This document shows positions 1 to 59,900 of a DNA stretch of 64,000 nucleotides, in pieces. The stretch is from positions 682,001 through 746,000 of the forward strand of contig JAPFFF010000014.1 of the NCBI GenBank assembly GCA_039105265.1, given 5' to 3'. Positions within the stretch are counted from its first letter, which is position 1. Each line of letters begins with the position of its first letter. A program made the position numbers and the translations under genes. Below the pieces are notes generated by a model that was given only the letters and a program-made list of their open reading frames with translations, was not told the DNA's origin and ran no database searches. The DNA is from Tritrichomonas musculus. Its lineage: Eukaryota; Parabasalia; Tritrichomonadida; Tritrichomonadidae.

Positions 1-1
1 A

Positions 2-163
2 TTCACCAAACGTAATGGTAAGCTCTGTAATGTATCACGAACAGTTCCACGACAGAGTACTACCAAACCAGAAGAGAGTGACTCATACACATACAAGTCC
101 AGATACTATGATCCACATACCAAAACATTTAAGTATGTCACTAGAATACAATCCAAATACTAA
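2..163 (+). CDS. 3' end of an unidentified ORF (partial at window edge)
   Basis: An open frame enters from the left edge and stops at TAA (161-163), giving about 53 residues rich in T, S, Y and K, ending near DPHTKTFKYVTRIQSKY. I do not recognise a family. The same frame, after stops, runs into the pentapeptide-coding repeats that start near 240, so this may be the preserved part of a repeat-containing surface-type protein, or simply an open stretch. Confidence 0.25.
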   Translation, partial: FTKRNGKLCNVSRTVPRQSTTKPEESDSYTYKSRYYDPHTKTFKYVTRIQSKY

Positions 164-231
164 GTGAATCACTCCATTGGTAACATATCTATTTTTGATC
201 GGTAACAGTCGAATCGAATACAAATATAAAT

Positions 232-1000
232 GGATGGTTCATCATATGCGGATACATCATTATCGATCACAACATATGCGGATGCAACATAAACAGATAC
301 ATCATATGCGGATACATCATATACAGATACAACATATACAGATACAACATAAACAGATACATCATTATCGATCGCAACATATGCGGATATATCTTATGCG
401 GATACATCACATATGGATATAACTTATCGGATACACCATATGCGGATACAACATATACGGATACACATTATCTATTACATCATATACAGATACATCATAT
501 GCGTATACATCATATGCGGATGCAACATATGCGGATACACATTAACGAGTACGTCATATATAGATACAACATATGCGGATATAACTTATCGATAACAACA
601 CATGCGGATGCAACATATGCGGATACATCTTATCGAGTACATCTTATGCAGATACATCATCACATGCGGATACATCTTGTCGATTACATCATATGCGGAT
701 ACAACATATACAGATACAACATATGAGAGTACATCATATACAGATACATCTTATCGAGTACACATCATCGGATACATCTTATCGAATACACATCATCGGA
801 TACATCATATACAGGTACATCACACGCGGATATAACTTATCGATAACAACACATGCGGATGCAACATATGCGGATACATCTTATCGAATACATCATCACA
901 TGCGGATATATCTGGTCGAGTACATCTTATCGGATACATCATTATCGATTACATATCATTATCGAAATCGATCAGAATCACTCATGAATCACATCATTGG
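232..1000 (+). repeat. Degenerate 15-bp minisatellite (units like CATATGCGGATACAT)
   Basis: About 50 imperfect copies of a 15-bp unit built on ACATCATATGCGGAT, with variants such as ATACAGATACAAC and TTATCGATTACAT. Because 15 is divisible by three, long spans stay open in several frames. One frame reads pentapeptides such as TSYAD and TTYTD, but indels shift that frame repeatedly, so no single protein spans the array. It is either a decayed repeat-coding gene or a plain minisatellite. The Met-His-Ile-rich ORFs across it are best read as repeat artefacts. Confidence 0.85.
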
Positions 1001-1010
1001 TTAATGGGTT

Positions 1011-1239
1011 AGAATTAACCCGATATCTCCCCCTTTTATTAACAAGTCGATTTCGATACGTTTTTGATCCATTTTCGATACACTTCGACCATCATATAAC
1101 GATTCATCTCTTAACAACGAACCGATAACAGTCGATCACTAACAGACGATCATTAACTAAAAGAAATGATTGTGGGTCCTTTCAGTCAACAATAAATCTG
1201 TTATTATAATTTTTCAAATCATTTAAATCTTCTTTATAA
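1011..1239. other. Spacer between minisatellite and Rep fragment
   Basis: No convincing gene. A short stretch near 1160-1200 on the plus strand (around RNDCGSF) might be the decayed linker upstream of the Rep helicase domain, but this is too weak to annotate. Confidence 0.3.
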
Positions 1240-1600
1240 GGAATTCCTTATGATGAAGAACTTTTAGGAGAATGGCATTATGGTTGTAATGGTGGTGGAA
1301 AATCAACTTATGTCTTTAAAATTGCAATTGAGAATTTTGGTTCTTTTTATACAAAAGAAACAAACAAGAGGTGGGATGGTTATAATTATGAACCTGTTTT
1401 TATCATTAAGTATATTGATCCTGAAAGAGCTTATTTGGGTTGATCATTTTCGGCTTAAAGCCGAATTTAAAGGCGGTTCAATGACAATTCATCCTAAACC
1501 GATTATCATTACATCAAATTATACTATTGATGAATGTTTCTAAAATGATTTTGATCGTGAAACAACATCAATGGTTCAATTTTAATGGAAAAAGGCTATT
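1240..1600 (+). pseudogene. CRESS-DNA-virus-type Rep, helicase-domain fragment (broken)
   Basis: The plus strand carries, in the right order and spacing, the landmarks of the superfamily 3 helicase half of circovirus-like replication proteins: a P-loop ending GGGKS after a WHYG-like lead-in (about 1273-1300), a WDGY-type segment (about 1370), a weak Walker B region, then FKGGS and an IIITSN motif C (about 1500-1520). It is broken. The first part stops at TGA 1441-1443, and the homology resumes in another frame (1280 frame, stop about 1541), followed by more stops. No endonuclease half (HUH, YxxK) is evident upstream. I interpret it as an endogenised relic of a replicon or virus and infer no activity. 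Identification rests on motif order; a database search was not possible. Confidence 0.7.
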
Positions 1601-2114
1601 TTAATAAATAATTATATTCTTCTCTTATCTTGCGACAATCCTTGTTCATTATTTGTATTGATGATTTACTAAGAAAGTATAGCAGAATGATTGCAATTTC
1701 CACTCGTTCTTCTTTTTTTTCTTCAGACAATTGATATTGAATCCATTTGAAGTTAATTTTGTGAATATGAATATCATTTTTTAAAATTGAGCAATCTGCT
1801 TTCTTATCTATTCCAATATGTTTTGCACATTGTATAAGGCAATCATATGGATTTTCTTGCATGGATTCCTTGACTAGTTCAATATATTCAATTTCTTTTT
1901 ACTATCCTTAACGAATTATATCAAAAACTGAAAAAGAACCGTTTTCAATTGATTCAGTATATCTCTTTACAGTTCTTAGAGTTATTGCTCCATCACCATA
2001 AATACTTATGAACTTCTGATATATCTGTATTATTAATTCCCAATAAATAAAGAAATCGTGTTACTGCACAAATATCATGTATATCAATTTGTGAAAGTAA
2101 AGAATATATAACTG
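1596..2114 (-). pseudogene. Mariner-type transposase N-terminal half, decayed
   Basis: Read on the minus strand, the segment resembles the paired helix-turn-helix region of mariner transposases: a first helix set (LYLLGINNTDISEVHKYL), then a YGDGAITLRTVKRY-like segment with FENG-FSVFD-like residues, then the second half ending in KINFKWIQYQLSEEKKEERV, matching the family pattern K..FKWVPH.L...K..RV. There are several stop codons and at least one frameshift (near 2005). The 88-codon open piece 1596-1862 is only the surviving part. No catalytic D,D residues remain visible and no terminal inverted repeats were found. It directly abuts the Rep relic. Confidence 0.65.
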
Positions 2115-2148
2115 ATATGTTAAAAGAAAGTATGAAATGAATCAATGA

Positions 2149-2456
2149 TTGCCTTGTGAAATTGATAATTCAGAACAAATACATAATGAAGCCAAAGATA
2201 TAAAAACTGAACTATATTTGATTCAAAATAGAATGTACTTAAATACGTATAACATTAACAATTTTGGATTATCAATATAAAATATTAAAACATAAAAATA
2301 AACATCTTATAGCTATAAATTTTATTTTACAAATGCTCATTCATTGATGCTTCATAAGATATTTACAGATATATAATAAAAATATTCAATAGTTTATTTC
2401 ACATTTTCAAATGATGAAGGAACTTCACTTTGGTGAAAAAGGAAGATAGTTTTCTT
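2149..2456 (+). other. Spacer upstream of RecQ; short open relic at 2149-2280
   Basis: 2149-2280 is open in one frame for 43 codons with a protein-like composition, ending at TAA 2278-2280, but lacks an ATG. It could be the tail of a lost gene. The rest is AT-rich leader sequence containing the initiator of the RecQ gene. Confidence 0.25.
2425..2430 (+). promoter_or_regulatory. Initiator-like element TCACTT for the RecQ gene
   Basis: TCACTT matches the trichomonad initiator pattern TCA(+1)YT/W. The A at 2427 would give a 30-nt leader to the ATG at 2457. Because transcription would begin here, the upstream in-frame TTG at 2430 cannot be the start codon. Confidence 0.5.
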
Positions 2457-5400
2457 ATGATTCAGAACCGATTAGAACTTGAAAACAGTATTTTTGGTGA
2501 TGATGAGGTCCTTGACTCTTTAATTAAATCTGGATTTATATATAGTTTTAACTCTGTACCAATTAATGAAGAAGTTGACTTTGAGAAAACATATCAATCA
2601 AATCAAAAAGTCAAATATTCTAAAGGTTCTAAATTTCAATCAGAAGATGAAGAACATTCTTTCTCATCAAAATCAAAAAATACATTAACTAATAATTATT
2701 CTCAAAAAAAAAAAGAATCAAGTCAAGTAATACAGAATAGTCAACAAACTCAATCAAAATCATATGTTAGCTTAAATCAACCATTAAAATCGAAACCAGA
2801 AAATGAAATAAATCAATTTAATTATACCAAAAATTGTGATCAAAATAATTTTTTACTTGATGATGAAGATATTGACGAAAATACCTTTCTTCAAGATTTA
2901 TATAATCAATTAGTTATTCTTTCTAATAAAATAAGTGGAAAAATAACCAATAATTATCCAGAACAAGAAATTAATCAACTTCAATTGCAAAGGAGAGGTA
3001 TTATTGATCAAATAGAAATCATAGAAACCCAATTGATTTCTTCTCAAAAAAATACAGCAAGCATACAAGACGAGCCATGCTTAATTCCTTTGAGGATTCC
3101 AAAACCAAATCAAAATCAAACACAAATACAACCAAATGAAACCAATTTTACAAATAATGATAGTTATAATAATTATATAGATGATATTGAAGACAATGAT
3201 AATAATTACAACAATAATAGTAATAATATTAATGTTATTGTTAATAATAGCGCTAATATGAGCCAAGATCATGAAGTGGAAGTTAAAAATATTCAAGATT
3301 TACATCAAAGACCAGAAAATTCTTTTTTAAGCGATGATTATGATGAAGATATAGAATTTATTAACAACACAAATAGTAATAACAATTATAACAACCAAAT
3401 ATTTAATAAATCAGCCGAAAAAGTAGTTTCAAATGAAAATACTTACATTGAAGTCAACGATGATGATATGGATGAGAACATTGAAGATGACGAAGACGTA
3501 CAAGAAATATTTCCAGAAGAGCAAAAAAAACCTATTGATCCACAAAGGCTTTTACAAATGAACGAAGTTAACAAGAGAGTTTTTAAACATAATTCATTTA
3601 GAGGTGTCCAATCATCTGCAATTGATGCAGCTCTTTCAGGTTATGATGTCTTTGTTTTAATGCCAACCGGTGGAGGAAAGAGTCTTTGTTATCAGCTTAC
3701 TGGAGTTATTCAAGGTGGTCTTACTATTGTTGTATCACCATTGATTTCACTTATTGTTGATCAAGTCAGAGGATTGAAAGAAATTGATGTCAAAGCAGAA
3801 TATTTATCTGGAGAAACTACAAGAAGTTCCTACAATTCGATCATTAATCAAATGAAAAGCGACCAACTTCGCTTTTTATACGTTACTCCTGAAAAGCTGA
3901 GGCTTTCTGATCATTTAAGAAGCATTTTACTCGAGCTATATAATCAACAGAAAATAACAAGATTTGTTGTTGATGAAGCACATTGTGTTTCTCAGTGGGG
4001 ACATGATTTTAGACCACAATACATGGAATTGAATTCATTAAAGGAAGATTTCCCTAAAGTTCCAATTATGGCTTTAACAGCAACAGCAACAGATGCTGTT
4101 AAAACTGATATTATTAACAATCTTAGCATTAAAGACTGCATGAAATTTCAGCAATCATTCAATAGACACAATCTTTTCTATGAAGTTGCAGAGAAAAAAG
4201 GAAACATCAGGAAGAACTGCGAATTCATCCATGATTGGATTGTTTCTCATAAATACCAAAATTCAACTGGCCTCATTTTTTGTCTATCCACAAATGACAC
4301 CGAAGATGTTGCACAATGCTTGAATGAATTTGGTTTTAAAGCAGAAAATTATCATGCTCAAATGGCAACAGAACTTAGGCATAGCGTTCAGAGGAAATGG
4401 ACAAACGGGGAAACCAAAATTATTGTTGCTACAAATGCTTTTGGAATGGGAATTGACAAGCCAGATGTTCGCTTTGTCATCCATCATACAATGCCAAAAA
4501 GTCTTGAAGAATATTATCAAGAAAGTGGACGTGGTGGCCGAGATGGGAAAATAACACATTGTTTATTATTATTTAACTTAGGCGACTATAAGCGTGTTTT
4601 TCGACTTGTTTCAAATATTGAACCAGGAGTCAAGAAGAATCAAACACGAATTGATATTGAAAGAAAACTTCTCTCTGAAATGACTCAATATGGAAAAGAA
4701 GAAGTTCAATGCAGAAGAGTGAAAATACTTCAGTACTTTGGCGAACATATTGATCGTTTTGCTTGTAATGGAATGTGTGATAATTGTAAAAGGTTTAACA
4801 GCGGAAAATGCCATGTCGTCCAAGCTGATGTGACTGATCATGCTAAGAATGTTGCACGGATTATTGAAAAAATAAGTAAAAAAAGAAAAACAGCTCCATA
4901 CCCAACAAGTAATCATGTTGTTGACGTTTACACTGGCTGCAAGGCATCCAAAATTAGCAAATGTGGTGATGATAATTTAGAAGAGGCAGGATTAGGATCT
5001 GAATTAAAAGGAAAAAATCAATCAATTTTACACACTATATTATCCAAATTATCTGAGCAAAAAATTATTGTAGAAAAAAAAAGAAAAACGGCTCATGGAA
5101 TTATTCTTTATTGGGCTCCAGGGCCTCAAATAAACAGTTTCTTAAGATCAAATGAAAATAAAATAATTGTTGATCGTATAGCTAGCAGTTCTGTAACTTC
5201 TCCAGTAAAATCTTCCTTATCAGCATCATATCCAAAACCTTCACTGGCTTCATTGCCAGCACGTTCATTTAATAAAACAAATGATACATCACAACAGCCA
5301 AGCGAAAAAGAACTTTATGATGCTCTTTATTCGGCAAGACAACGAATTGCTCAAATAGAAAAGAAGCAAGTAAATGAAATTGTTAAAAAAGATGTACTCG

Positions 5401-5882
5401 TTCAAATGGCTCATAACAGACCAAATGATCTATCTGATCTATCAGTAATCAAAGGTTTTACAAAAGAAAAAGTTTCTCAATATGGACAATACTTTTTAAG
5501 TGTCATAAACAAAGATTCAACACAGAAGTCACCTTATTTTTCACCTAATTCTAATTCAAAATCTAAGCAACAACGTTTATCATTTCAACAAGAAGCACAA
5601 TCACCGCCTTCTCCATCACGTCCTCTTCCACCACCACCACCACCACCACCACCTCCTCCTCCACCATCTCCTCCTCAAGCAATTTCACCACCTCAGGTTT
5701 CACCAATGCCTATGGAACAATCACCTCCATCGCCACAGCAACCAAATATCATTTCTCAAATTCAAAATTTACAGCAGCATACAAGCATGAATGTTGTAGA
5801 TTTATTACAACTTATGCAAAAGCCAGAAACGATTCAGTTAATGCAACTAATCGTTAATGTGGCTAAACCAATGAATCAATAA
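2457..5882 (+). CDS. RecQ-family DNA helicase (BLM/Sgs1-like)
   Basis: A 1141-residue ATP-dependent 3'-5' DNA helicase for recombination and replication-fork repair in the nucleus. Start is the first ATG after the initiator; the frame is open slightly upstream from a TTG. The N-terminal 380 residues are low complexity (N, D, Q, S-rich with acidic runs). The helicase core has motif I MPTGGGKS (about residue 402), [15 protein letters not shown] (DEAH at about 506), TATAT, and the GRGGRDG motif. It is followed by the RecQ zinc-binding/RQC region (cysteines in CRR..., CNGMCDNC, about 755-780), a winged-helix part and an HRDC-like domain (about 950-1018). The tail has a proline run and SPP/SPQ motifs. 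The domain set matches Sgs1/BLM rather than short RecQ5 forms. The proline codons form a slippage-prone CCA/CCT tract. Confidence 0.92.
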
Positions 5883-6204
5883 TTTCTTTGGCTGCTGGAT
5901 CTAATTTCTATGAAATATTAAAAACAAAGGAGCAAAAAAATGCACAAAACAAATGTTAAAAAGAAAAAATATTTTAAATTTTAAATATTATAAAATAATC
6001 ATTGGCTCAATTTGGATTACTGTTTTATTATTATTTATTTTAATTTAAAAGATCGAATAAATTCAAAAAAAGGTTGATGTTCAACATTATATTTTTTAAT
6101 ATTCGAATTTTGCAAAGTGTTAATTTTTGGGTTGATTCGTACGTTAAAATACGTTAAGTAAGCTATTCATTTGAATTTTTTTGGTATAAAATGTCATCTA
6201 TTGT

Positions 6205-17724: not shown

Positions 17725-18663
17725 CATAAAATTTGAGAAGAATTCTATGAGCTATTTTAAAAAGTTTATATAGCTTTTTATAAAAAATTCGTTTTATTTA
17801 AAGAATAAAAAGAAATTTCTACAAATAAATAAAAAAATATTAATAACATCTAAGGCTTTATTAATAATTAAAATATGAATAAAAAGGAAGATGGTAAATA
17901 TTTAATTATTTTATTATATTCTAAAAAGGTAAAAGCTATCGAAATTCTTTATATGCAATTTTTTTAACATTTGTCATTACTCATCATTTATTTATTTTTT
18001 ACGGTTCACTTTGTTTTTTCATTCAAAATATAATGTTCATATTGCGCTACTTGTTAATTTTTCAAGTAAATTTTCTGTGGTTATAAAAAGTTTATTTAAT
18101 TGTAGATTAAAATGTTTGGTTGAGAAATACTGATTCTGATAAATGTTGGATAAAATTGCATATAATTTCAAAAATGATGACGAAACAAATGAACGTAGAA
18201 CTTAATTTTATATGCATTTGTTTTCAGTATAAAAGTATAAATCGATTCAACAATGATTTGGATTTTGATTGATTTTTTGCATTTGCGAAATGAGATTTTT
18301 ACTATTAAATTGAAAATGAGTAAACATTAAAATTGTAATAATGATCAGAATGCTGAAATATTATGCACAATTTAAAGATTACTTAAATCTAAAGAAGATA
18401 ATTAAATAATTAAAATTGGACATAATCAAACTTTTCTGAAAAAATGAATATTAATAAGACTAAATAATTATTAAAAATGCGCGTTTTAACTTTGTATTTT
18501 CCAAAATTAAGTTCACTTAATTTAAATAATTATTAAGATGAACATATATTGCATAAAATCCGACAATAAAGATAAAATACTTCTTTGAAATCGAAAAAAA
18601 GCAGAAAACAGCGATCTTTTGTAATAAAGAAAAATTCAAACAGTTTCTTATGGAATCAAATGA

Positions 18664-19034
18664 CTAATCATAAAGAAATTTATCATTTGCATTGAATTTT
18701 TATCGTATGAATTTGTCTAATCATAAAGAAATTTATCATTTGCATTGAATTTTTATCGTATGAATTTGTCTAATCATAAAGAAATTTATCATTTGCATTG
18801 AATTTTTATCGTATGAATTTGTCTAATCATAAAGAAATTTATCATTTGCATTGAATTTTTATCGTATGAATTTGTCTAATCATAAAGAAATTTATCATTT
18901 GCATTGAATTTTTATCGTATGAATTTGTCTAATCATAAAGAAATTTATCATTTGCATTGAATTTTTATCGTATGAATTTGTCTAATCATAAAGAAATTTA
19001 TCATTTGCATTGAATTTTTATCGTATGAATTTTA
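18664..19034. repeat. Tandem array, 7 copies of a 53-bp unit
   Basis: Units begin CTAATCATAAAGAAATT at 18664, 18717, 18770, 18823, 18876, 18929 and 18982, exactly 53 bp apart and almost identical. There is no coding potential and no unique spacers. It lies in the non-coding half of the pogo-type transposon; copy-number change by unequal exchange or slippage is likely. Confidence 0.93.
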
Positions 19035-19608
19035 ATTGATGAATAATAATTATGAATAAAATTGATTCTAAATTTGGATGACATTTAAGACAAAATTATT
19101 CAATATTTACATTTAGTTGTTGGGATCTATTTTAAATTTTGGCGTTTATAAAATATTCATGATAAATTATTTATAAAAAGAGAACGAAATTGTTTCTGCA
19201 TTTGAATTTTTATTAAAATTGAGCACGAAATTATTTTTGCCTTTCAACAGTAATCAAATCAAATCATCATTATTTCAATTTTTTAACAAGGTAAAAATAT
19301 ATGTTTCATTGGAAAACATAAATCATAATCAGTAAAAAATAATGCTTTTCAATGTAAAAACTTAAGTTTTTAGCGATAAATTAGTTTTTGAATGCTATTG
19401 TTAGTCTATTGACAAAAATCGTCTCAAAAAAATCTATTGTCTGAAGCCAATAATTTTGATACAAAAATTTTAATTTGATAGAATGACAATATCTCCACAT
19501 CATTAAGTTAAAATGATTTTTGAATCATTTTAACAATAATAATAATAATAAAACTAATATATTATTGATGGGAAGAGTTTGGATCGATAATTTATTGGAA
19601 CGCAATAT

Positions 19609-20038
19609 CTTATAACGATATCAAATTTGATAACCAAAACAAAGAATGAAAAGAATAACATCATTCTTGAATACAAAAGAGTAACAATATTCACACCTGA
19701 TAAAGTTGCAGCAGTAACTTGTTGTGCATCATCTTATAACGATATCAAATTTGATAACCAAAACAAAGAATGAAAAGAATAACATCATTCTTGAATACAA
19801 AAGAGTAACAATATTCACACCTGATAAAGTTGCAGCAGTAACTTGTTGTGCATCATCTTATAACGATATCAAATTTGATAACCAAAACAAAGAATGAAAA
19901 GAATAACATCATTCTTGAATACAAAAGAGTAACAATATTCACACCTGATAAAGTTGCAGCAGTAACTTGTTGTGCATCATCTTATAACGATATCAAATTT
20001 GATAACCAAAACAAAGAAAAAGAATAACATCATTCTTG
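19609..20038. repeat. Tandem array, 3 full and 1 partial copies of a 124-bp unit
   Basis: Units start CTTATAACGATATCAAATT at 19609, 19733, 19857 and 19981, exactly 124 bp apart. The last is truncated and carries a small deletion. The array sits immediately 3' of the transposase gene inside the transposon. Confidence 0.93.
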
Positions 20039-41656: not shown

Positions 41657-41665
41657 TTCATTTTT
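41657..41665 (+). repeat. 9-bp direct repeat (left target-site duplication)
   Basis: TTCATTTTT directly before GGGACTATTTCACC; the same nine bases follow the inverted end at 52019-52027. Confidence 0.7.
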
Positions 41666-44600
41666 GGGACTATTTCACCTAAGTACTCAATTTTTCACTT
41701 AAGTTATCAAAAATTGAAAAGGTAAAAAAAATAATATCTCCAATTGATAAAGAAAAAATATTTAGTATCATTTTTCCTCTCAAAAACATATCATTAAAAA
41801 ATTCCAAAATGTTAAGCGCTGCAGCATTTATAGAGTAAGAAGCCGAAAAAAATATATATTAATCGGGGTTCCGTGGAGATTACAATGACGCAATTTTTAT
41901 CCCAAAATTCCTTTTTCAAATATAATATCTAATTTAATCGCAACAAACTCCACGAGAAAAAAGTTTGTAAGTACCAGGACATTGTAGACAATTGAGTTTT
42001 ACGTCGAACTTTGCGATATAAAATGCTAATTCGTATATTTTTAGATCAGCGATTTATATCTAATAATTTAATTTTCTTGGTTCATTGTTGAAATAGATAG
42101 AAAATCTCCTCGAATAATATTCTTTATCATTTTTTACATATTATACTAGCTTTAAACGTTATAAAAAACCCTCTGAATATATACGATTATTCTATAATAT
42201 TCATAAACCAATCAGTAAATTGCTAACAAAAACATATTAAAATATATATATGTGAATCAATATTAGAAAATATGTAAATCATTTTTTCTTATTTTATTTT
42301 TTTGATGTAGAAAAATGAAGATTATGATTAAATCAAAACTTATTATAAACGTATTTGGTATTAAATCAAGATATATTACTGTATTTATTTAAAGTATTTT
42401 GATTTTTATATTATTTGGAATATATTTGAGTAGTATATAAATTGTTTTTACTAGAAAAATCTATATCATATTTTGATATATCAACATTTTAAAATTATTT
42501 TTTTTTTTTCTATAACTTATTTAAATTTTTCAATAATTATTTGTAATTTTGAGAAAAGTTTATATCAGTTGATGAATATTTTAAATCAATTTTTTGAGAT
42601 AATGCCTTTTATCGGCAACTTTTTGTGATGTTTTTATTGAATGAAGATTAAGAATTATTGACATAGAAAAAGTAGGAAAGTAAAATAATTATATAAAATC
42701 AAAATATCTTAATATTAGCTTTGTATAATAATAATATTTAAATCTAAATTAGATGTTATATAATATATAATACTAAATTTTGCTGCATAATAAATAAGTA
42801 TTTAATTAAAATAGTTTTTTAATAGATATTGTTTGAAAACAAAAATATTCATAAATACATTATGTGGAATAAAGATTACTAAATTTTTAAGTGGATAATT
42901 ATCAATATAAGTTGTAAAATAACCTATTTTATAATCGAGAAAGGAGCAAGGGTAACCGTTTTTCGTACGTTAAGAAGCCTTAAAAAAGCATTTATATCTT
43001 ATTATAAGAACAAGAAAAAACAATATTTTTTAAATATATTGATTATTTATATTAGATAAAATAATCCTTAATGATACATTACATAATTATTTCAAGTGTG
43101 ATGAAATTAATGACTAATGATATTTTTTTTGATCATCCAAAGGACTTGTAGATTAATGGTTTTGACATTCTATTTTAGTGCTAAATGATAAAATGATATT
43201 ATGTCTTTTAAATAAAATTTATAGTAGACTTATAAAATTCCATATCGCATTTTTTATTTTTGAAATCCTGGGGAATAATCCTTTCTGTTGAGTGTTTATT
43301 TACATTAATATTTTATTTTGTCGACGATTGGTGTTAATAATTCTATTATATTATAATTAATGTTTTTTTAATAAGGAATTGTTATTACAAAATATAATTT
43401 TTTTAATATATATTTATTTAATAAAGCATATTAAATATATTATTTTCATTTTGGAGTTGAAATGGAAATAATTGCATGAATATTTATGTTCATTAAAAAT
43501 CAAAGTTTTCGGGGGAATAATAACAAATAGTTGTTATATAAAATCATATCAAGCAAATATAATTATTTATCAGCTGAATAAATCAATTAATTGCGATATT
43601 TATGAATTTTAATGATGTTTAGAGGTTCTATGATTTTTAATTATTAAATTTTAATAATAAAATAGACTATCATCTTTAATATAGGGAAATTTCATTTCCA
43701 AAATAACTAAGCACATAAGTAAATTCAGAATTAAAAATGAATAAAAAAAAAAATTGAGTAGTGCAAATTTTTAACACAAAAACTCATAGTATAATTTGTT
43801 TGTATTTTTCATAAGTACATATAATATTTTATATAATATATAATAGTTTTTTTATCTAAAATATCTCTATAATTTATTTATATTATTGAGATAAAAATGT
43901 TTTATTCAAAATAAATCTAATTTGAATGCCTATTCAAATATTTTTTTCTCTCAATTTTTTCTTTTCAAATTTAAGTTTTATCGTTTTACAAATTTTTCTT
44001 GATGGGATATTAATATTTTTTAAATATTCTTGTATATTTAATCATATATATAGTTTTAAAAAATAATTACTCATAAGGTATTTTAAATCAATTTATATAT
44101 TTGCTTGGGAGAATGCATAAAACTAATGATCGAGTGTAACTTATCATGACTCTAATATAAAATTGGTAGTTGTGATTTGAGATTTAGTCGAATAAATAGA
44201 TTTAATATACGCATATATATCTAATATATTGTTTTCGAATGATTTGGTATGTTGAATTTGGGACAATATTTGATTTAATAGCATCAGTAATTATTTCAAA
44301 AAACTGATTATATCTCAGCCATTTTGTAAAAATATTGAGTCTCGCATGGTTTATTCTAATTATATTAGCAGATACTTTTAAATCATCATATGGTCTATCT
44401 TGAATTATTTGAAATTGAGAATCTCCAAATTTCATCGATTGCCCTTAATCAAATCATAAAAGTAATATTTATATATAAATATTATTATATTATTTATAAA
44501 TAAAATAAAATTTTGAATTTATTAATTATATAACGCAAAAAAAGGCAAACAACGAGAAAAAATAGCCCATTCAATAAGTTAACTCTCCTCTTCAATTTGT

Positions 44601-46029
44601 CAACTTTTTGAATTATTTTTATACTTTGATATTTTTCTTTCATTTGTCGGTAAATCGATTTATTTCTGTGATTTTACACAACTTCTATCAAACATGTAAA
44701 AACGTTTAGAATTAAAATTCGTACGTTAGTTCTGAAAAGTTAAACTTTTTGATAACTTGGATTTTTTTAAAACGATAGATTCTTTTCTGGTCCATATAAA
44801 GTTTACTTAAAAACCAATATACTATATAATATTTCAATATGAAGTCGAAACGATTTTCAATAACCTCTAAAGTGGTGCTTCTTTTAATAGAGGTAATTTC
44901 AAGATCTTTTTCTCAAAATTGAAATAAAATATGCGAAAATGGTCTATAATATATATATATAAACGTTATTATATAATAACAACATTATGAAATTCAAATT
45001 TCAGTTCAAATCATTGAGATATTTGAAAACTTTTTTATTAAACTTTTTCATTTCCACTGGAAATTTTCAAGAAGGGAATCATTTTAAACTGTATAAAAAA
45101 ACTTAAATCTCCAGTGTGGAATTTTTATGACATTAAATAAATTAAAACATATATTGAAAAGAAAATTAAACCTTTTGGAAATAATTGATATAAAATCTGA
45201 AAATTAACATAAAATGTAATTTTAATGAAGAAATCATAAGTGTCAATGTTTAAAAAATAAAATTATAATTTTCTTTAATGAAACCCTTTATTCAATTTTT
45301 ATGATAAGATAAATGCTAACATCTAGAGTTTCGATTTGTTATTCCAAAGTAAATTTAATAAATATAAATATAATAAATAAGATATTTTTAATTATTTTGA
45401 CAACTTAAATGATTATAATTCTTCAAATTTGTCTAATAATTTTATTCTTTTTCTAAAATGACAAGTAGGCTTGTTATTTTCCGATTCTCGAGATTGATAA
45501 TTGATTGACTTTTCGATATCGATACATAAATACGCACTGATTCTCGAGATCGATTTCAGAGATCGAGAATTTTACGAATTTCCAGTAGCAACTTTTTGAG
45601 AGCTAGATTAATTGAATTTAATTTCGCTCACTTTTTCATGAACAATGCTTCAATGAAAATGGATTATTTTTAAAAAGTTTGAATTATCATATTCATAATG
45701 CTATTATATGAGTTGTTTAAATTCGCATATTAACCATATCATATGACAAAATAATAACCACTTCTTCATTTTAATTTACTTTTTCTTTTAATTGAAAGGT
45801 TATGTTGGTTATATTTTTTAGAGAAAAAGTTGATATGCCTCGTGCTTTAAAAAAATGCTAAAATGAGTGAAAAAATGAGGGAAAGAATCAAAATTTAGGA
45901 TTTGGTGGTTGCTACAGGCAACAACAGTGATAGGTATCACGATATTTATTATGTGTAGCAATCAAAACCTTAAACTTGAACCTTGTCCAGAGATAATGTT
46001 TGACAAAGACTTAACTGGCAGCAATCTTA
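41666..46029 (+). repeat. Left arm of the long inverted repeat (4,364 bp)
   Basis: AT-rich and mostly non-coding. It contains a 77-codon ORF on the minus strand and, at its inner end, the beginning of a frame that continues into the core. Apart from this nothing was recognised. Confidence 0.9.
44202..44435 (-). CDS. 77-residue ORF in the left arm, unknown
   Basis: MKFGDSQFQIIQDRPYDDLK... continues with a charged, helix-like sequence including RINHARLNIFTKWLRYNQFF. No family recognised. Identical to the ORF in the right arm at 49249-49482, so it exists as an outward-facing pair. It could be a remnant of a transposon protein or a chance frame. No clear initiator precedes the ATG. Confidence 0.35.
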   Translation of the reverse strand: MKFGDSQFQIIQDRPYDDLKVSANIIRINHARLNIFTKWLRYNQFFEIITDAIKSNIVPNSTYQIIRKQYIRYICVY

Positions 46030-46675
46030 GCAAAGATCTTATCACTGTTGCTAGAGAAAAAGTTTTTACGATAGAATTTGACGATTCTGATTATGCTAAC
46101 ATACTTGAACCCAAAATATTTACATTTATAAAGGATATTAATCTTAGAGATGTATATAAATGCGATGTTATAGATTTGTTATAGGTATAAAAAATAACAC
46201 AGGACTTGTTTCATAATGCATTAGAACTTAAGAAAATGATTCTGTATAAGGTAATGATCCATCAAGTATTACGTATATTAAGCACTTTAGCATACCTGGA
46301 ATAGATATAGCTCAAGACCCAGATATAGCTATCGTGAAATATGTAAAAAACTTAGTAAAAAACAAGAGCAATAATAATTATGAAACATTAAAGACAAAAT
46401 TAGATGAAATGGAGAATAATTTGTGGAAGCATTTTTATTATGTATTTACACTTTGTGATGACCAAACGATAGATAACATTTTTTATTCAGATAATACTTC
46501 AACAAAAGAATTTGGTTTAGAATTTTATTAAGATTTTATTTTTAACAAGAAAGAATATTTAGTGATGATGATTAGAACCAATATTATAAAAGGGAAAACT
46601 TATATTGATGAAATTTATGGTCCTACAAGATTTATAGAATTAAATGATTTTGAGTATACTAATTTTGATAATATT
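45879..46675 (+). pseudogene. Broken gene of unknown function crossing arm and core
   Basis: A frame open from 45879 (hydrophobic WWLLQATTVIGITIFIM segment, no ATG; first ATG at 45951) runs to TAG at 46182, crossing the arm/core boundary at 46029. Protein-like sequence continues in pieces: DLFHNALELKK (after two stops), then 46250-46531 (IPGIDIAQDPDIAIVKYVKNLV to EFGLEFY), then a piece ending FELNDFEYTN-like near 46670. Asp/Asn/Lys-rich and possibly membrane-anchored. I recognise no family. The stops make it a pseudogene or several short genes. Confidence 0.4.
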
Positions 46676-46967
46676 TAACGTTATGGACGGCACAATTATA
46701 ATTATAATATAAAGTAACCACGCTTATAATAATTATCATAATAATAATAAAATAGATATATAGCAGTAGTGAACCGTAGGCTAGGCCAAATAAAATGCCC
46801 CAGCCTACCACTACTCCAAGGGCTCCCACCCCTGGACCCCGCCTTACAAAGTCTTCAAAAAGCTCCAACAGTCCATATAATTCAAAAAGTTGGTAACAAA
46901 AAAATTCTAAGCAAAAAGTTTTATGGTCTCGTTATCAAAATTATTTTAGGGCAAATAATCTACCTAA

Positions 46968-47126
46968 ACCAATTTATGGGATAAAGACGAGGTTGATGTT
47001 AATATTCTTAATATTTTCATCATGAATGTAACGTTATGGACGGCACAAATGGACGTCCTTATATCGAAGATTGTGCCAGAGCTATATGGTGCAAGTGTTA
47101 AGGACAGGCTTAACGAAGTATTATAA
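46968..47126 (+). pseudogene. Protein-like open segment in the core
   Basis: Reads NLWDKDEVDVNILNIF, then LWTAQMDVLISKIVPELYGA and VKDRLNEVL, ending TAA. The composition is convincingly protein-like but there is no family I recognise and no in-frame ATG at its beginning. Probably an exon-sized fragment of the same decayed gene set. Confidence 0.35.
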
Positions 47127-47259
47127 ATATGATTACAAATATTTTTATAAGCGTGGTTACTTTTATTTCGAAAATAACTGATGTAGAAATGGGGGATGGA
47201 GATTCCATGGAAAATACATATAAATGCTATAAGCTGATAGAATAGGTGAACTGGCACCT

Positions 47260-47630
47260 CCAGATGATCCCAATATCGATCAATAATTTCTTAATGAGAT
47301 AGAAAATGACTGACAAGAAAAGGAAATAATTGTTTTTGTTGAAATAAGAATTCCAAGTCAAGAATATTAAAATGATTTTTTAAATCAAATAACTGTTTAA
47401 TTTGACAAGAATATAAGTAATAAGATCAAATGATATTTTTTTTAATATGGAGCTACAATATTATCAATTGTTTCACGGCAAAACAATGTGAAAAGCTTTA
47501 TATAAATTAAACTATATAAAGTTTAAGATGGAATGAACAAAATATCTCTGAAAACTTTATTAGTTCAATTAGGAATGAAAACAAAAGCAATTAATGATAA
47601 TTTATTAACTAAATAAAAGTTTTATTTCCT
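47260..47630 (+). pseudogene. Stop-riddled coding relic at the right end of the core
   Basis: One frame reads EKEIIVFVEIRIPSQEY, NDFLNQIT, DKNISNKIK, YGATILSIVSRQNNVKSF and KISLKTLLVQLGMKTKAIND, interrupted five times by TAA and once by TGA. Unknown family. The stops could be C-to-T changes of CAA and one TGG to TGA. Confidence 0.35.
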
Positions 47631-47654
47631 TTTATATAAAATATAATTTAAAAA

Positions 47655-50600
47655 TAAGATTGCTGCCAGTTAAGTCTTTGTCAAACATTATCTCTGGACA
47701 AGGTTCAAGTTTAAGGTTTTGATTGCTACACATAATAAATATCGTGATACCTATCACTGTTGTTGCCTGTAGCAACCACCAAATCCTAAATTTTGATTCT
47801 TTCCCTCATTTTTTCACTCATTTTAGCATTTTTTTAAAGCACGAGGCATATCAACTTTTTCTCTAAAAAATATAACCAACATAACCTTTCAATTAAAAGA
47901 AAAAGTAAATTAAAATGAAGAAGTGGTTATTATTTTGTCATATGATATGGTTAATATGCGAATTTAAACAACTCATATAATAGCATTATGAATATGATAA
48001 TTCAAACTTTTTAAAAATAATCCATTTTCATTGAAGCATTGTTCATGAAAAAGTGAGCGAAATTAAATTCAATTAATCTAGCTCTCAAAAAGTTGCTACT
48101 GGAAATTCGTAAAATTCTCGATCTCTGAAATCGATCTCGAGAATCAGTGCGTATTTATGTATCGATATCGAAAAGTCAATCAATTATCAATCTCGAGAAT
48201 CGGAAAATAACAAGCCTACTTGTCATTTTAGAAAAAGAATAAAATTATTAGACAAATTTGAAGAATTATAATCATTTAAGTTGTCAAAATAATTAAAAAT
48301 ATCTTATTTATTATATTTATATTTATTAAATTTACTTTGGAATAACAAATCGAAACTCTAGATGTTAGCATTTATCTTATCATAAAAATTGAATAAAGGG
48401 TTTCATTAAAGAAAATTATAATTTTATTTTTTAAACATTGACACTTATGATTTCTTCATTAAAATTACATTTTATGTTAATTTTCAGATTTTATATCAAT
48501 TATTTCCAAAAGGTTTAATTTTCTTTTCAATATATGTTTTAATTTATTTAATGTCATAAAAATTCCACACTGGAGATTTAAGTTTTTTTATACAGTTTAA
48601 AATGATTCCCTTCTTGAAAATTTCCAGTGGAAATGAAAAAGTTTAATAAAAAAGTTTTCAAATATCTCAATGATTTGAACTGAAATTTGAATTTCATAAT
48701 GTTGTTATTATATAATAACGTTTATATATATATATTATAGACCATTTTCGCATATTTTATTTCAATTTTGAGAAAAAGATCTTGAAATTACCTCTATTAA
48801 AAGAAGCACCACTTTAGAGGTTATTGAAAATCGTTTCGACTTCATATTGAAATATTATATAGTATATTGGTTTTTAAGTAAACTTTATATGGACCAGAAA
48901 AGAATCTATCGTTTTAAAAAAATCCAAGTTATCAAAAAGTTTAACTTTTCAGAACTAACGTACGAATTTTAATTCTAAACGTTTTTACATGTTTGATAGA
49001 AGTTGTGTAAAATCACAGAAATAAATCGATTTACCGACAAATGAAAGAAAAATATCAAAGTATAAAAATAATTCAAAAAGTTGACAAATTGAAGAGGAGA
49101 GTTAACTTATTGAATGGGCTATTTTTTCTCGTTGTTTGCCTTTTTTTGCGTTATATAATTAATAAATTCAAAATTTTATTTTATTTATAAATAATATAAT
49201 AATATTTATATATAAATATTACTTTTATGATTTGATTAAGGGCAATCGATGAAATTTGGAGATTCTCAATTTCAAATAATTCAAGATAGACCATATGATG
49301 ATTTAAAAGTATCTGCTAATATAATTAGAATAAACCATGCGAGACTCAATATTTTTACAAAATGGCTGAGATATAATCAGTTTTTTGAAATAATTACTGA
49401 TGCTATTAAATCAAATATTGTCCCAAATTCAACATACCAAATCATTCGAAAACAATATATTAGATATATATGCGTATATTAAATCTATTTATTCGACTAA
49501 ATCTCAAATCACAACTACCAATTTTATATTAGAGTCATGATAAGTTACACTCGATCATTAGTTTTATGCATTCTCCCAAGCAAATATATAAATTGATTTA
49601 AAATACCTTATGAGTAATTATTTTTTAAAACTATATATATGATTAAATATACAAGAATATTTAAAAAATATTAATATCCCATCAAGAAAAATTTGTAAAA
49701 CGATAAAACTTAAATTTGAAAAGAAAAAATTGAGAGAAAAAAATATTTGAATAGGCATTCAAATTAGATTTATTTTGAATAAAACATTTTTATCTCAATA
49801 ATATAAATAAATTATAGAGATATTTTAGATAAAAAAACTATTATATATTATATAAAATATTATATGTACTTATGAAAAATACAAACAAATTATACTATGA
49901 GTTTTTGTGTTAAAAATTTGCACTACTCAATTTTTTTTTTTATTCATTTTTAATTCTGAATTTACTTATGTGCTTAGTTATTTTGGAAATGAAATTTCCC
50001 TATATTAAAGATGATAGTCTATTTTATTATTAAAATTTAATAATTAAAAATCATAGAACCTCTAAACATCATTAAAATTCATAAATATCGCAATTAATTG
50101 ATTTATTCAGCTGATAAATAATTATATTTGCTTGATATGATTTTATATAACAACTATTTGTTATTATTCCCCCGAAAACTTTGATTTTTAATGAACATAA
50201 ATATTCATGCAATTATTTCCATTTCAACTCCAAAATGAAAATAATATATTTAATATGCTTTATTAAATAAATATATATTAAAAAAATTATATTTTGTAAT
50301 AACAATTCCTTATTAAAAAAACATTAATTATAATATAATAGAATTATTAACACCAATCGTCGACAAAATAAAATATTAATGTAAATAAACACTCAACAGA
50401 AAGGATTATTCCCCAGGATTTCAAAAATAAAAAATGCGATATGGAATTTTATAAGTCTACTATAAATTTTATTTAAAAGACATAATATCATTTTATCATT
50501 TAGCACTAAAATAGAATGTCAAAACCATTAATCTACAAGTCCTTTGGATGATCAAAAAAAATATCATTAGTCATTAATTTCATCACACTTGAAATAATTA

Positions 50601-52018
50601 TGTAATGTATCATTAAGGATTATTTTATCTAATATAAATAATCAATATATTTAAAAAATATTGTTTTTTCTTGTTCTTATAATAAGATATAAATGCTTTT
50701 TTAAGGCTTCTTAACGTACGAAAAACGGTTACCCTTGCTCCTTTCTCGATTATAAAATAGGTTATTTTACAACTTATATTGATAATTATCCACTTAAAAA
50801 TTTAGTAATCTTTATTCCACATAATGTATTTATGAATATTTTTGTTTTCAAACAATATCTATTAAAAAACTATTTTAATTAAATACTTATTTATTATGCA
50901 GCAAAATTTAGTATTATATATTATATAACATCTAATTTAGATTTAAATATTATTATTATACAAAGCTAATATTAAGATATTTTGATTTTATATAATTATT
51001 TTACTTTCCTACTTTTTCTATGTCAATAATTCTTAATCTTCATTCAATAAAAACATCACAAAAAGTTGCCGATAAAAGGCATTATCTCAAAAAATTGATT
51101 TAAAATATTCATCAACTGATATAAACTTTTCTCAAAATTACAAATAATTATTGAAAAATTTAAATAAGTTATAGAAAAAAAAAAAATAATTTTAAAATGT
51201 TGATATATCAAAATATGATATAGATTTTTCTAGTAAAAACAATTTATATACTACTCAAATATATTCCAAATAATATAAAAATCAAAATACTTTAAATAAA
51301 TACAGTAATATATCTTGATTTAATACCAAATACGTTTATAATAAGTTTTGATTTAATCATAATCTTCATTTTTCTACATCAAAAAAATAAAATAAGAAAA
51401 AATGATTTACATATTTTCTAATATTGATTCACATATATATATTTTAATATGTTTTTGTTAGCAATTTACTGATTGGTTTATGAATATTATAGAATAATCG
51501 TATATATTCAGAGGGTTTTTTATAACGTTTAAAGCTAGTATAATATGTAAAAAATGATAAAGAATATTATTCGAGGAGATTTTCTATCTATTTCAACAAT
51601 GAACCAAGAAAATTAAATTATTAGATATAAATCGCTGATCTAAAAATATACGAATTAGCATTTTATATCGCAAAGTTCGACGTAAAACTCAATTGTCTAC
51701 AATGTCCTGGTACTTACAAACTTTTTTCTCGTGGAGTTTGTTGCGATTAAATTAGATATTATATTTGAAAAAGGAATTTTGGGATAAAAATTGCGTCATT
51801 GTAATCTCCACGGAACCCCGATTAATATATATTTTTTTCGGCTTCTTACTCTATAAATGCTGCAGCGCTTAACATTTTGGAATTTTTTAATGATATGTTT
51901 TTGAGAGGAAAAATGATACTAAATATTTTTTCTTTATCAATTGGAGATATTATTTTTTTTACCTTTTCAATTTTTGATAACTTAAGTGAAAAATTGAGTA
52001 CTTAGGTGAAATAGTCCC
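47655..52018 (-). repeat. Right arm of the long inverted repeat (4,364 bp)
   Basis: Inverse of 41666-46029 with no net indel. It carries the mirror ORF at 49249-49482 and the mirror 5' part of the core gene, which here runs into different core sequence and stops at once. Confidence 0.9.
49249..49482 (+). CDS. 77-residue ORF in the right arm, unknown
   Basis: Residue-for-residue identical to the minus-strand ORF at 44202-44435. See that entry; function unknown. Perfect identity of the pair supports recent or continuing homogenisation of the arms. Confidence 0.35.
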   Translation: MKFGDSQFQIIQDRPYDDLKVSANIIRINHARLNIFTKWLRYNQFFEIITDAIKSNIVPNSTYQIIRKQYIRYICVY

Positions 52019-52027
52019 TTCATTTTT
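52019..52027 (+). repeat. 9-bp direct repeat (right target-site duplication)
   Basis: TTCATTTTT, copy of 41657-41665. Confidence 0.7.
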
Positions 52028-56977: not shown

Positions 56978-59900
56978 TTATTTATCATTCTTTTTCTCTG
57001 CTATTCTCATAAAACTCAAAATTGTTTGAATCTGGTTCTTTTGCTTTTTCGTTTTCTGAGGCTGGTTCTCTTGCTGACTTTTGGCAGGGCTCGTTGGAAT
57101 CATTTGTGGTTGACTTGAATCTGGACTATTCGATGATTTTTGCTTTGTCTTTTTGGTATCTGAAGTTTTTTGTTTGGATGGTTCTTGTTGAGTATCAGAA
57201 GATACAGAAAGAACTGTCTGAGATAACTTAGAAAATTGAGTAGTCAATACGTTTGATGGTATTTGAGATTTTTCTATTTGTGGTGATGTCGTAATTTGCG
57301 GTGATGTTGTAATTTGTGGTGATGTTGTAATTTGTGGTGATGTTGTAATTTGCGGTGATGTTGTAATTTGTGGTGATGTTGTAATTTGTGGTGATGTTGT
57401 AATTTGTGGTGATGTTGTAATTTGTGGTGATGTTGTAATTTGTGGTGATGTTGTAATTTGTGGTGATGGTGTAATTTGTGGTGATGTTGTAATTTGTGGT
57501 GATGGTGTAATTTGTGGTGATGTTGTAATTTGTGGTGATGTTGTAATTTGTGGTGATGTTGTAATTTGTGGTGATGTTGTAATTTGCGGTGATGTTGTAA
57601 TTTGTGGTGATGTTGTAATTTGTGGTGATGTTGTAATTTGTGGTGATGTTGTAATTTGTGGTGATGTTGTAATTTGTGGTGATGGTGTAATTTGTGGTGA
57701 TGTTGTAATTTGTGGTGATGTTGTAATTTGTGGTGATGGTGTAATTTGTGGTGATGTTGTAATTTGTGGTGATGGTGTAATTTGTGGTGATGTTGTAATT
57801 TGTGGTGATGGTGTAATTTGTGGTGATGGTGTAATTTGTGGTGATGGTGTAATTTGTGGTGATGTTGTAATTTGTGGTGATGTTGTAATTTGTGGTGATG
57901 TTGTAATTTGTTTTGGGTTTGATATTTGTGGTGTTTTCGAAATTTGTTGTGTATTTTGAGATGATTGATTCATTTGGGGAGATGGCGAAACCCTCATTGA
58001 TTGTGGAATTGCTTGTGGCCGTGGAATCTGAGAAATTGGAATTTGATTTGATTGTATAATACCTTGCTTAATTGGTATATATTTATTTTGGAATTTAATA
58101 TTGATATTTCCATTTAGCTGTTGAGTCGAGTTTTGAGGAATAGAATATTGACTAGATAAATTATTAGGTTGTTGATTTGAATTAATTTGATTTTGGCTTT
58201 GTGAATTTGCCAAATTTGAGGAAGAGCCCAATGGTGGTTGCAGCATATTTGGTTGATTGGTTGTTGATGAAATGGAGTTGCGCTGTACAACTATCTTTTG
58301 TTGCGAATTGACTTGAATCGAATCTTGTTGATTTTGATTTTGTATTTGCTGTTGATTCTTTGGGATTGGCAATTGAGATTGCTGAAACTGTTGTTGAGAA
58401 TAAACTTGATTCTGTTGAGATTGGGTTTGTGCCTGAATTGGTGATTGTTGAGGTTGAGGCTGAAATTGTTGGATCGGTGTTTGTGGCGATTGTTGAGATT
58501 TCCACTGCTGTTTCATAAAAGCTTTTTGCTTTCTTGTATTGTTCATCAATTCATTAATTACCCAATAAATATTTGCATTTTTCTGATTTTGTTGTTGAGT
58601 CAAAACTTGGCTTTGATTAATTTGAGAAAGAGGGATTTGAGGATTCGATGACTGGGCTTGTAGTTGTAATGTATTATTTCTGTTTTGCAAAAATTGGAGA
58701 GAAATAGGCATATTTGAAATTTGCCGAATTTGTTGAAGGTTTTGCATTTGTTGTCCTGGTTGTTGTAATGATAAGTGTGGTGGTTGCTGTTGAGATGTTC
58801 CTTGATATCCAGTCTTTTTATGAAATAATTCTGGTTTAATAAAACGCCTCTTTTTCTTTCTCTTTTTCTCTCCTTCATTTTCACTGTCTTTATCGTTATC
58901 AGTCGATTTTGTTTTTCGTTTCATCGAAGGAAGCTTGAGTTTCAATTTTTGTGCAATTTCTTTCTGTTCTTTCGAACTGTATGAAAAAGCCTCAATGAAT
59001 TTGTCAATTTTTGGATCGCTTTTGTTTGATTGTTCAATGTAGTCATCAACTTTATTATTAAAACTGTAATAAAAATCTTTTTCATTTTCAATCGGATAAA
59101 AATGATTTTCATCAAAAGATTTTCTTTTCTTGGTTTCGCCTAATTCATTTGTTGGGACCTCTCTTACCTGGAATTTATATACTGGATTGTTATCGTTTAT
59201 ATTTTTATTAAAAATAGTAACTGTATTATTTGTTAAAGAAGTCTGAGAGACTTCGTTATTATTAGTATTGCTATTTGGTATTTCATTTATATTATTATTT
59301 CCGGTGTTATTTGAAGTAAAATTAATGTTAGGAGATGCGTTTGAGGGATTTTCAATTATCATAGAGTTTGAATTACTTGTAAGGTTTTGTTTATCAATTT
59401 TGTCATTTTCTTCATTATGCACATGCTTTTCTCCTTCCTCCTCTTCACCTCCAAGATAAATTTTGTACTCCTTAGAATTGGCCACAAGGTCAACCATCTC
59501 TTGATGATTATTAACCAAATGATCGAATGCATGCTTTAAAACATCATTAAGCATAATATCTGATACTTCTTTAATACCAACATTATAATAATTAATTAAT
59601 CGAATGACACATTCATAAGGAGTTTCTTTTAGCATTATAATGTATGTTTTTTCCATTAGAACTTGATTATGAGTTAATAAAGCATAACCAAAACTCTTAA
59701 TAACATCATCCAGCGTTTCAAAGTTTTCTATTAAGGAAAATGGTGGTTTATATTCATAATCTGGAAGAGTCCAGCATTGTCGCTTAAATGAATATCTGTA
59801 TCTTTTGTTCTCTGTCTGAATTATTGGTGAAAATTGTTTTGTTTCGATTTCTTGTGTTAATTCAATATATCTTATCTTATCTAAATTCCCATAAAAATTA

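Follow-up and report, generated by a model that had tools for sequence, protein, structure and literature searches.

Fold-back Mutator-like elements (MULEs) are already known, and in the cited account most fold-back elements are said to appear to be of the Mutator type (PMC4079207). A survey of MULEs gives terminal inverted repeats (TIRs) of 14–500 bp in its text, with a maximum of 640 bp in its table, which lists TIRs of 20–38 bp and a target-site duplication (TSD) of 9–11 bp for TvMULE, and TIRs of 100 or 31 bp with a 9-bp TSD for MULE-Tv (PMC6446971); the authors of the TvMULE paper did not identify typical long TIRs (PMC2725143). Here we analyzed a 64,000-nucleotide stretch of Tritrichomonas musculus DNA (assembly GCA_039105265.1, contig JAPFFF010000014.1, positions 682,001 to 746,000; hereafter the window), in which a palindromic element of 10,353 bp occupies positions 41666–52018. 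Like TvMULE and MULE-Tv of Trichomonas vaginalis as tabulated in the survey, its family consists of trichomonad MULEs, here with TSDs of 9–10 bp. However, against their TIRs of 20–100 bp, those found here measure 1,045 bp and, in a second family, 1,159 bp, both lengths coming from copies whose transposase frames are intact, and the fold-back arms reach 2.4–4.4 kb. Among open-access titles and the openings of abstracts, with subscription papers and Repbase outside the scope, no long-TIR or fold-back trichomonad MULE was found. What seems to be new is a trichomonad-type MULE with TIRs exceeding 1 kb, arms of 4.4 kb and a nearly unmutated series from parent to derivative.

Drosophila FB-type elements carry tandemly repeated motifs within their TIRs. 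Such motifs were not apparent in the window element, either with Tandem Repeats Finder (10 rows for positions 41666–47654, with units of 9–21 bp, at most 3.0 copies and scores of at most 62) or in the direct-repeat listing, which held no copies of 40 bp or longer inside the element. The Tm1 Mutator/Foldback elements of root-knot nematodes are similar in their foldback-like ends, their TSDs of 8–10 bp (mostly 9 bp) and the presence of transposase-less alongside transposase-bearing forms, whereas their TIRs are described as composites of repeated motifs and the arms here are a duplicated left end without such arrays (PMC3169594). Galileo of Drosophila likewise has TIRs that grew by taking in internal sequence, and its defective copies are attributed to template switching or to gap repair that was aborted, although Galileo belongs to the P superfamily rather than to the MULEs (PMC4168063). 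In Mu killer of maize, part of a MULE is inversely duplicated, but the duplicated part is reported to include some of the transposase gene, which the present arms do not (PMC3440606). Plant multiple-TIR MULEs also have rearranged ends, as does one copy described below with a 110-bp tandem end; these are described as carrying extra or tandem TIRs, as opposed to the fold-back of a whole half seen here (PMC3310237).

We conclude, with a probability of roughly 0.88, that the window element derives from a recently active Mutator-like DNA transposon and is a non-autonomous fold-back form of it, presumably mobilised in trans. A preliminary description of the window had proposed equal inverse arms of 4,364 bp, a 9-bp duplication at both ends, and arms taking up 84% of the element, all of which held on measurement. 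Ungapped base-by-base alignment of positions 41666–46029 and 47655–52018 gave 0 mismatches, and a separate inverted-repeat listing recovered a repeat of 4,364 nt with 100% complementarity and arms 1,625 nt apart, such that the element consists mostly of inverted repeat, as expected of a fold-back structure. Relative to an intact parent copy (C43:40626-54772, introduced below), the features are as follows:

41657–41665, no strand: left TSD, TTCATTTTT (flank comparison)
41666–46029, plus strand: left arm, the left end of the parent from 1 to about 4363 (alignment)
41666–42710, plus strand: left-arm segment corresponding to the 1,045-bp TIR of the parent (genome search)
46030–47654, plus strand: single-copy centre, colinear with the parent to about 5990 (alignment)
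47655–47657, no strand: fold-back junction with a 3-bp overlap, TAA (parent to 5991, inverted copy from 4363)
47655–52018, minus strand: right arm, where the parent's left end recurs in inverted orientation and replaces the transposase half and right end
50974–52018, minus strand: right-arm segment corresponding to the 1,045-bp terminal repeat of the parent (genome search)
52019–52027, no strand: right TSD, TTCATTTTT (flank comparison)

The centre contains short frames only, and none of the three that were tested matched Pfam at E ≤ 0.01. No start-codon open reading frame (ORF) of 80 aa or more lies wholly within an arm, where the longest stop-to-stop frame is 80 aa. By eye, the centre also shows GTTATGGACGGCACAA twice and CCACGCTTATAA once per orientation (46680–47165), perhaps the relic of another small element.

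We searched the genome from which the window derives (193.4 Mb in 746 contigs, denoted by C-numbers; the window lies on C14). Given that 40 of 1,466 candidates from the left-arm search were scored, copy counts based on it are lower bounds. Beside palindromes, this search returned copies that carry the arm once, with its first 1,045 bp inverted 14.1 kb away. These parents are 14.1 kb long, with 1,045-bp TIRs and a single transposase gene in the right half; one of them, C43:40626-54772, provides the coordinates for all parent positions given here. Its sole ORF of at least 150 aa (stop to stop, introns not considered) encodes a transposase of 1,018 aa on the minus strand. Among 45 of 2,913 candidates scored, this frame was present uninterrupted and 100% identical at nine places, and broken at one more. 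The nine are places rather than proven separate insertions, because the C566 contig repeats a C43 site, perhaps as an allele.

The transposase matched the Pfam MULE family (PF10551) with E = 1.2e-4. A protein search with residues 480–1018 (7,999 scored) yielded nine relatives at E ≤ 0.001, and D686, D746, E837, CxxH and CxCx9CxH were invariant in all 10 aligned proteins (one of which is 99% identical to the query). We take the two aspartates and the glutamate to be candidate catalytic residues, and CxCx9CxH to be a zinc motif. Two of seven relatives scanned matched SWIM at E < 0.001 (P0003 and P0006, the latter exceeding the SWIM cut-off), and weak ankyrin-repeat matches were present in two of the seven. 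The search by sequence for relatives of solved structure (Protein Data Bank) gave one match, a ribosomal protein at E = 0.071, which is not credible. Judged from its sequence, the autonomous partner is predicted to encode a MULE-type DDE transposase. The family terminus, GGG followed by AC or TT and then TATTTCACC (GGGACTATTTCACC), was counted at 44 places, compared with 0 in a reversed control, and the terminal repeats are common to autonomous and non-autonomous copies. Both ends could be read in six full-length copies, whose variable dinucleotides were TT on the left and AC on the right in four, AC at both ends in one, and the reverse of the common arrangement in one.

The window element corresponds to parent positions 1–5991 joined to inverted positions 4363–1 (99.95%–99.97% identity), with the transposase half missing. 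The same junction (5991/4363, overlap TAA; type A) was found at five loci with differing flanks: the window on C14, C9:704757, C1:8961012, C1:3697375 and C2:5832264, with ends of AC/AC in four and TT/TT in one. Type A thus multiplied to at least five loci after its birth. A second junction (type B), joining parent 1–5893 to inverted 2363–1 with overlap GAA, was present at three (C52:711705, C14:2391207 and C16:1246090). Because two different fold-back junctions each occur at several loci, the same end must have given rise to fold-backs on two or more occasions, and both types went on to multiply. Plain internal deletions that removed the transposase were also found, at C12:1148845 with a 5-bp overlap and at C2:6256203 with a 6-bp overlap by BLAST coordinates (the automatic count failed at this junction, giving −2, beside a homopolymer difference). 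The overlaps at the three clean junctions are 3, 3 and 5 bp, a sum of 11 that is reached by 0.34% of random triples. Copies are 99.7%–100% identical over long matches. Fold-backs of the right end were absent among all 29 of 29 candidates scored, in that the right subterminal stretch formed no long inverted pair in one element; it contains an internal inverted repeat of 62 bp and occurs in both orientations on C43, but there in two nested copies.

TSDs, which were read by eye, were perfect and 9–10 bp long at four of the five type A loci (TTCATTTTT in the window, TCTGTGAGGG on C9, TAATTTTTTT at C1:3697375 and GAAAAAGTT on C2) and 9 bp long at all three type B loci (CTTTTTTCC on C52, CAACCTTTC on C14 and, beyond the extra 110-bp tandem end, ATATATTAA on C16), within the 9–11 bp or so typical of MULEs. 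Other family members also carried TSDs (C2:1079820, TTTTATAAT; C14:2304608, CAATTATAA; C34, GTACTGGTA; C12, AAAAAAAAT), and the flanks of C43:40626 agree at eight of nine positions. No TSD was visible at C9:1636021, at C2:6256203 or at C1:9699392-9730084, which is 30.7 kb long, while the tally leaves out C7 (unreadable) and the nested or one-ended copies C43:1272726, C43:1235276, C53, C566, C589 and C10. Based on base composition, the chance of a given 9-mer matching between flanks is about 1.7e-5 per locus. The preliminary description had suggested looking for other copies with the terminus and flanking duplications, and these exist, as the 44 termini and the TSDs at several loci attest. It had also anticipated an empty site with a single target. 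This was found for a sister of the window element: C3 contains a contiguous paralogous site that is 93% identical to the joined flanks of C9:704757 and has a single TCTGTGAGGG exactly at the point of insertion. Empty sites were sought in this genome for four of the eight fold-back copies, and none was found there for the window element itself, C14:2391207 or C2:5832264.

On this reading, the 14.1-kb parent lost everything to the right of 5991 and acquired its first 4,363 bp a second time, inverted and joined on at a 3-bp microhomology. Most probably this took place while a gap or break was being repaired, in that the repair would have been interrupted and the template switched to the left end. 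Because both ends keep the family terminus, intact parents presumably supply the transposase that moves the palindrome in trans by cut and paste, as the target duplications, the several loci and the intact genes suggest. Of the origins entertained in the preliminary description, inverted duplication of a MULE is well supported by the parent, its MULE-type transposase, the two independent fold-back junctions, the 9–10-bp duplications and the empty site.

Several observations weigh against this reading. The fold-back junctions overlap by just 3 bp each, a length attained by about 10% of random joints, and if C2:6256203 is included as −2, the summed overlap of four junctions falls to 9 (P = 0.04). 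The PF10551 score of the 1,018-aa transposase is 22.9 bits, short of the curated cut-off of 27.6, and the MULE matches of six of the seven relatives scanned each lie under that cut-off as well. Moreover, the type A palindrome at C1:8961012 has no TSD.

The preliminary description further raised the possibility that the arms were homogenised by gene conversion. With an edge column excluded, the two arms are identical in three type A copies (the window element and the two on C1), and the copies on C9 and C2 each have two sites at which their arms differ. Sites 4/5, 501 and 1018 vary among type A copies yet are the same in both arms of all five, which suggests partial arm-to-arm gene conversion in type A, through few events. 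Palindrome arms would, on this evidence, probably trade sequence with each other. Other details point the other way: all three mirrored differences set the C2 copy apart from the other four (G at 501 being the only mirrored state private to it among the aligned rows), and sites 415, 843 and 3143 are unlike between arms in one, two and one of the five copies, respectively, although 843 lies in a homopolymer and may be a sequencing error. In type B, the arms have unlike ends (AC vs TT) in all three copies, and C52 and C16 each show one additional difference (edge columns excluded), which argues against homogenisation there. Conversion therefore receives modest support as a secondary process in type A, while type B has kept its unlike ends. 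That recent origin alone made the arms identical, without any conversion, is somewhat improbable in our view; the near-identity of copies over long matches and the identical arms of three of the five type A palindromes fit it, whereas the terminal AC/TT, 501 and 1018 vary among copies but do so jointly in both arms.

It is possible, albeit unlikely, that the palindrome derives from two neighbouring or nested inverse parents trimmed by internal deletion, for which a template switch would be unneeded. Inverted nesting is real in this genome, both in the second MULE family on C4 and for a parent copy on C43, and the arms of C2:5832264 carry G and A at 3143, both states being present among parents, as if two parents had contributed. 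However, the window element has two termini only, its centre is colinear with a single parent, and trimming would require the deletion of all internal ends, twice independently for types A and B. A simple nested inverted insertion, considered because the second family on C4 shows exactly that, was rejected for the window element on the same absence of internal termini and colinearity of the centre.

The second MULE family is 10.8 kb long, with 1,159-bp TIRs and uninterrupted 1,027-aa frames whose transposase is 48% identical to that of the first. At C4:5245040-5266687, one copy is inserted inverted in another and mimics a 21-kb palindrome. With 40 of 968 candidates scored, none of the six copies seen was a fold-back, the nested case being the sole arrangement of this appearance. 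In the first family, a parent copy on C43 lies inverted inside another copy of the same family, and an identical 1,001-bp flank occurs on three contigs (C43:1289039, C53:1129250 and C566:13927), where a fragment of the outer right end meets the inner inverted copy at 11982, 11941 or 11853. These contigs are apparent alleles with deletions beside a transposon end, which may be ongoing.

Mavericks and invertrons carry polymerase and integrase genes, with a TSD of 5–6 bp. Many Mavericks are reported in T. vaginalis (PMC6431247). An integrated replicon of this kind, which the preliminary description had listed and which the long inverted ends would suit, was nevertheless rejected as very improbable, given family TSDs of 9–10 bp and a parent copy whose sole ORF of at least 150 aa is the MULE-type transposase. 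Palindromes are a known assembly hazard, but an artefact from a fold-back read chimera is just as improbable, with one junction at five loci, TSDs at four of them and one empty site; because the palindrome recurs with the same centre at four more loci with different flanks, chance is excluded and local mis-assembly is unlikely.

Fold-back origins have often been guessed from old and decayed copies. Here, one genome holds the parent, two independent fold-backs, plain deletions and a paralogous empty site (93%), and their coexistence at 99.7%–100% identity over long matches leaves hardly any noise in the record of how the junctions formed and how the arms later exchanged sequence. The value of the family lies in the nearly unmutated state of both parent and derivatives. 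More speculatively, and with the odds well against it, left-end fold-backs might be a repeatable by-product of repair, and the palindromes self-maintaining parasites whose arms correct each other by conversion, as those of Y-chromosome palindromes do. If so, such elements would have two identical ends for the transposase at no transposase cost. If transcribed through the centre, the palindromes would be natural sources of long hairpin RNA against the parent's ends.

Minor observations concern individual copies and the surroundings of the window element. The last 110 bp of the type B element on C16 are tandemly repeated past its end (C16:1254337-1254446), with the TSD beyond the repeat. An 841-bp segment (C1:3707800-3708640), 94% identical to part of an arm, is located some 70 bp beyond the end of a type A copy and is perhaps an older relic. 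An alanine dehydrogenase gene lies 0.4 kb from the window element, with its closest relatives at 99% and 83% identity, followed by those of Tritrichomonas foetus (80%) and Trichomonas vaginalis (74% and 72%); judged by this one gene, the host is probably a trichomonad similar to Tritrichomonas but distinct from T. foetus. Elsewhere in the window, tandem arrays occur at 57105 to beyond 57926 (unit of 18 bp), 18608–19085 (53 bp), 19602–20033 (124 bp) and 230–930 (about 15/44 bp).

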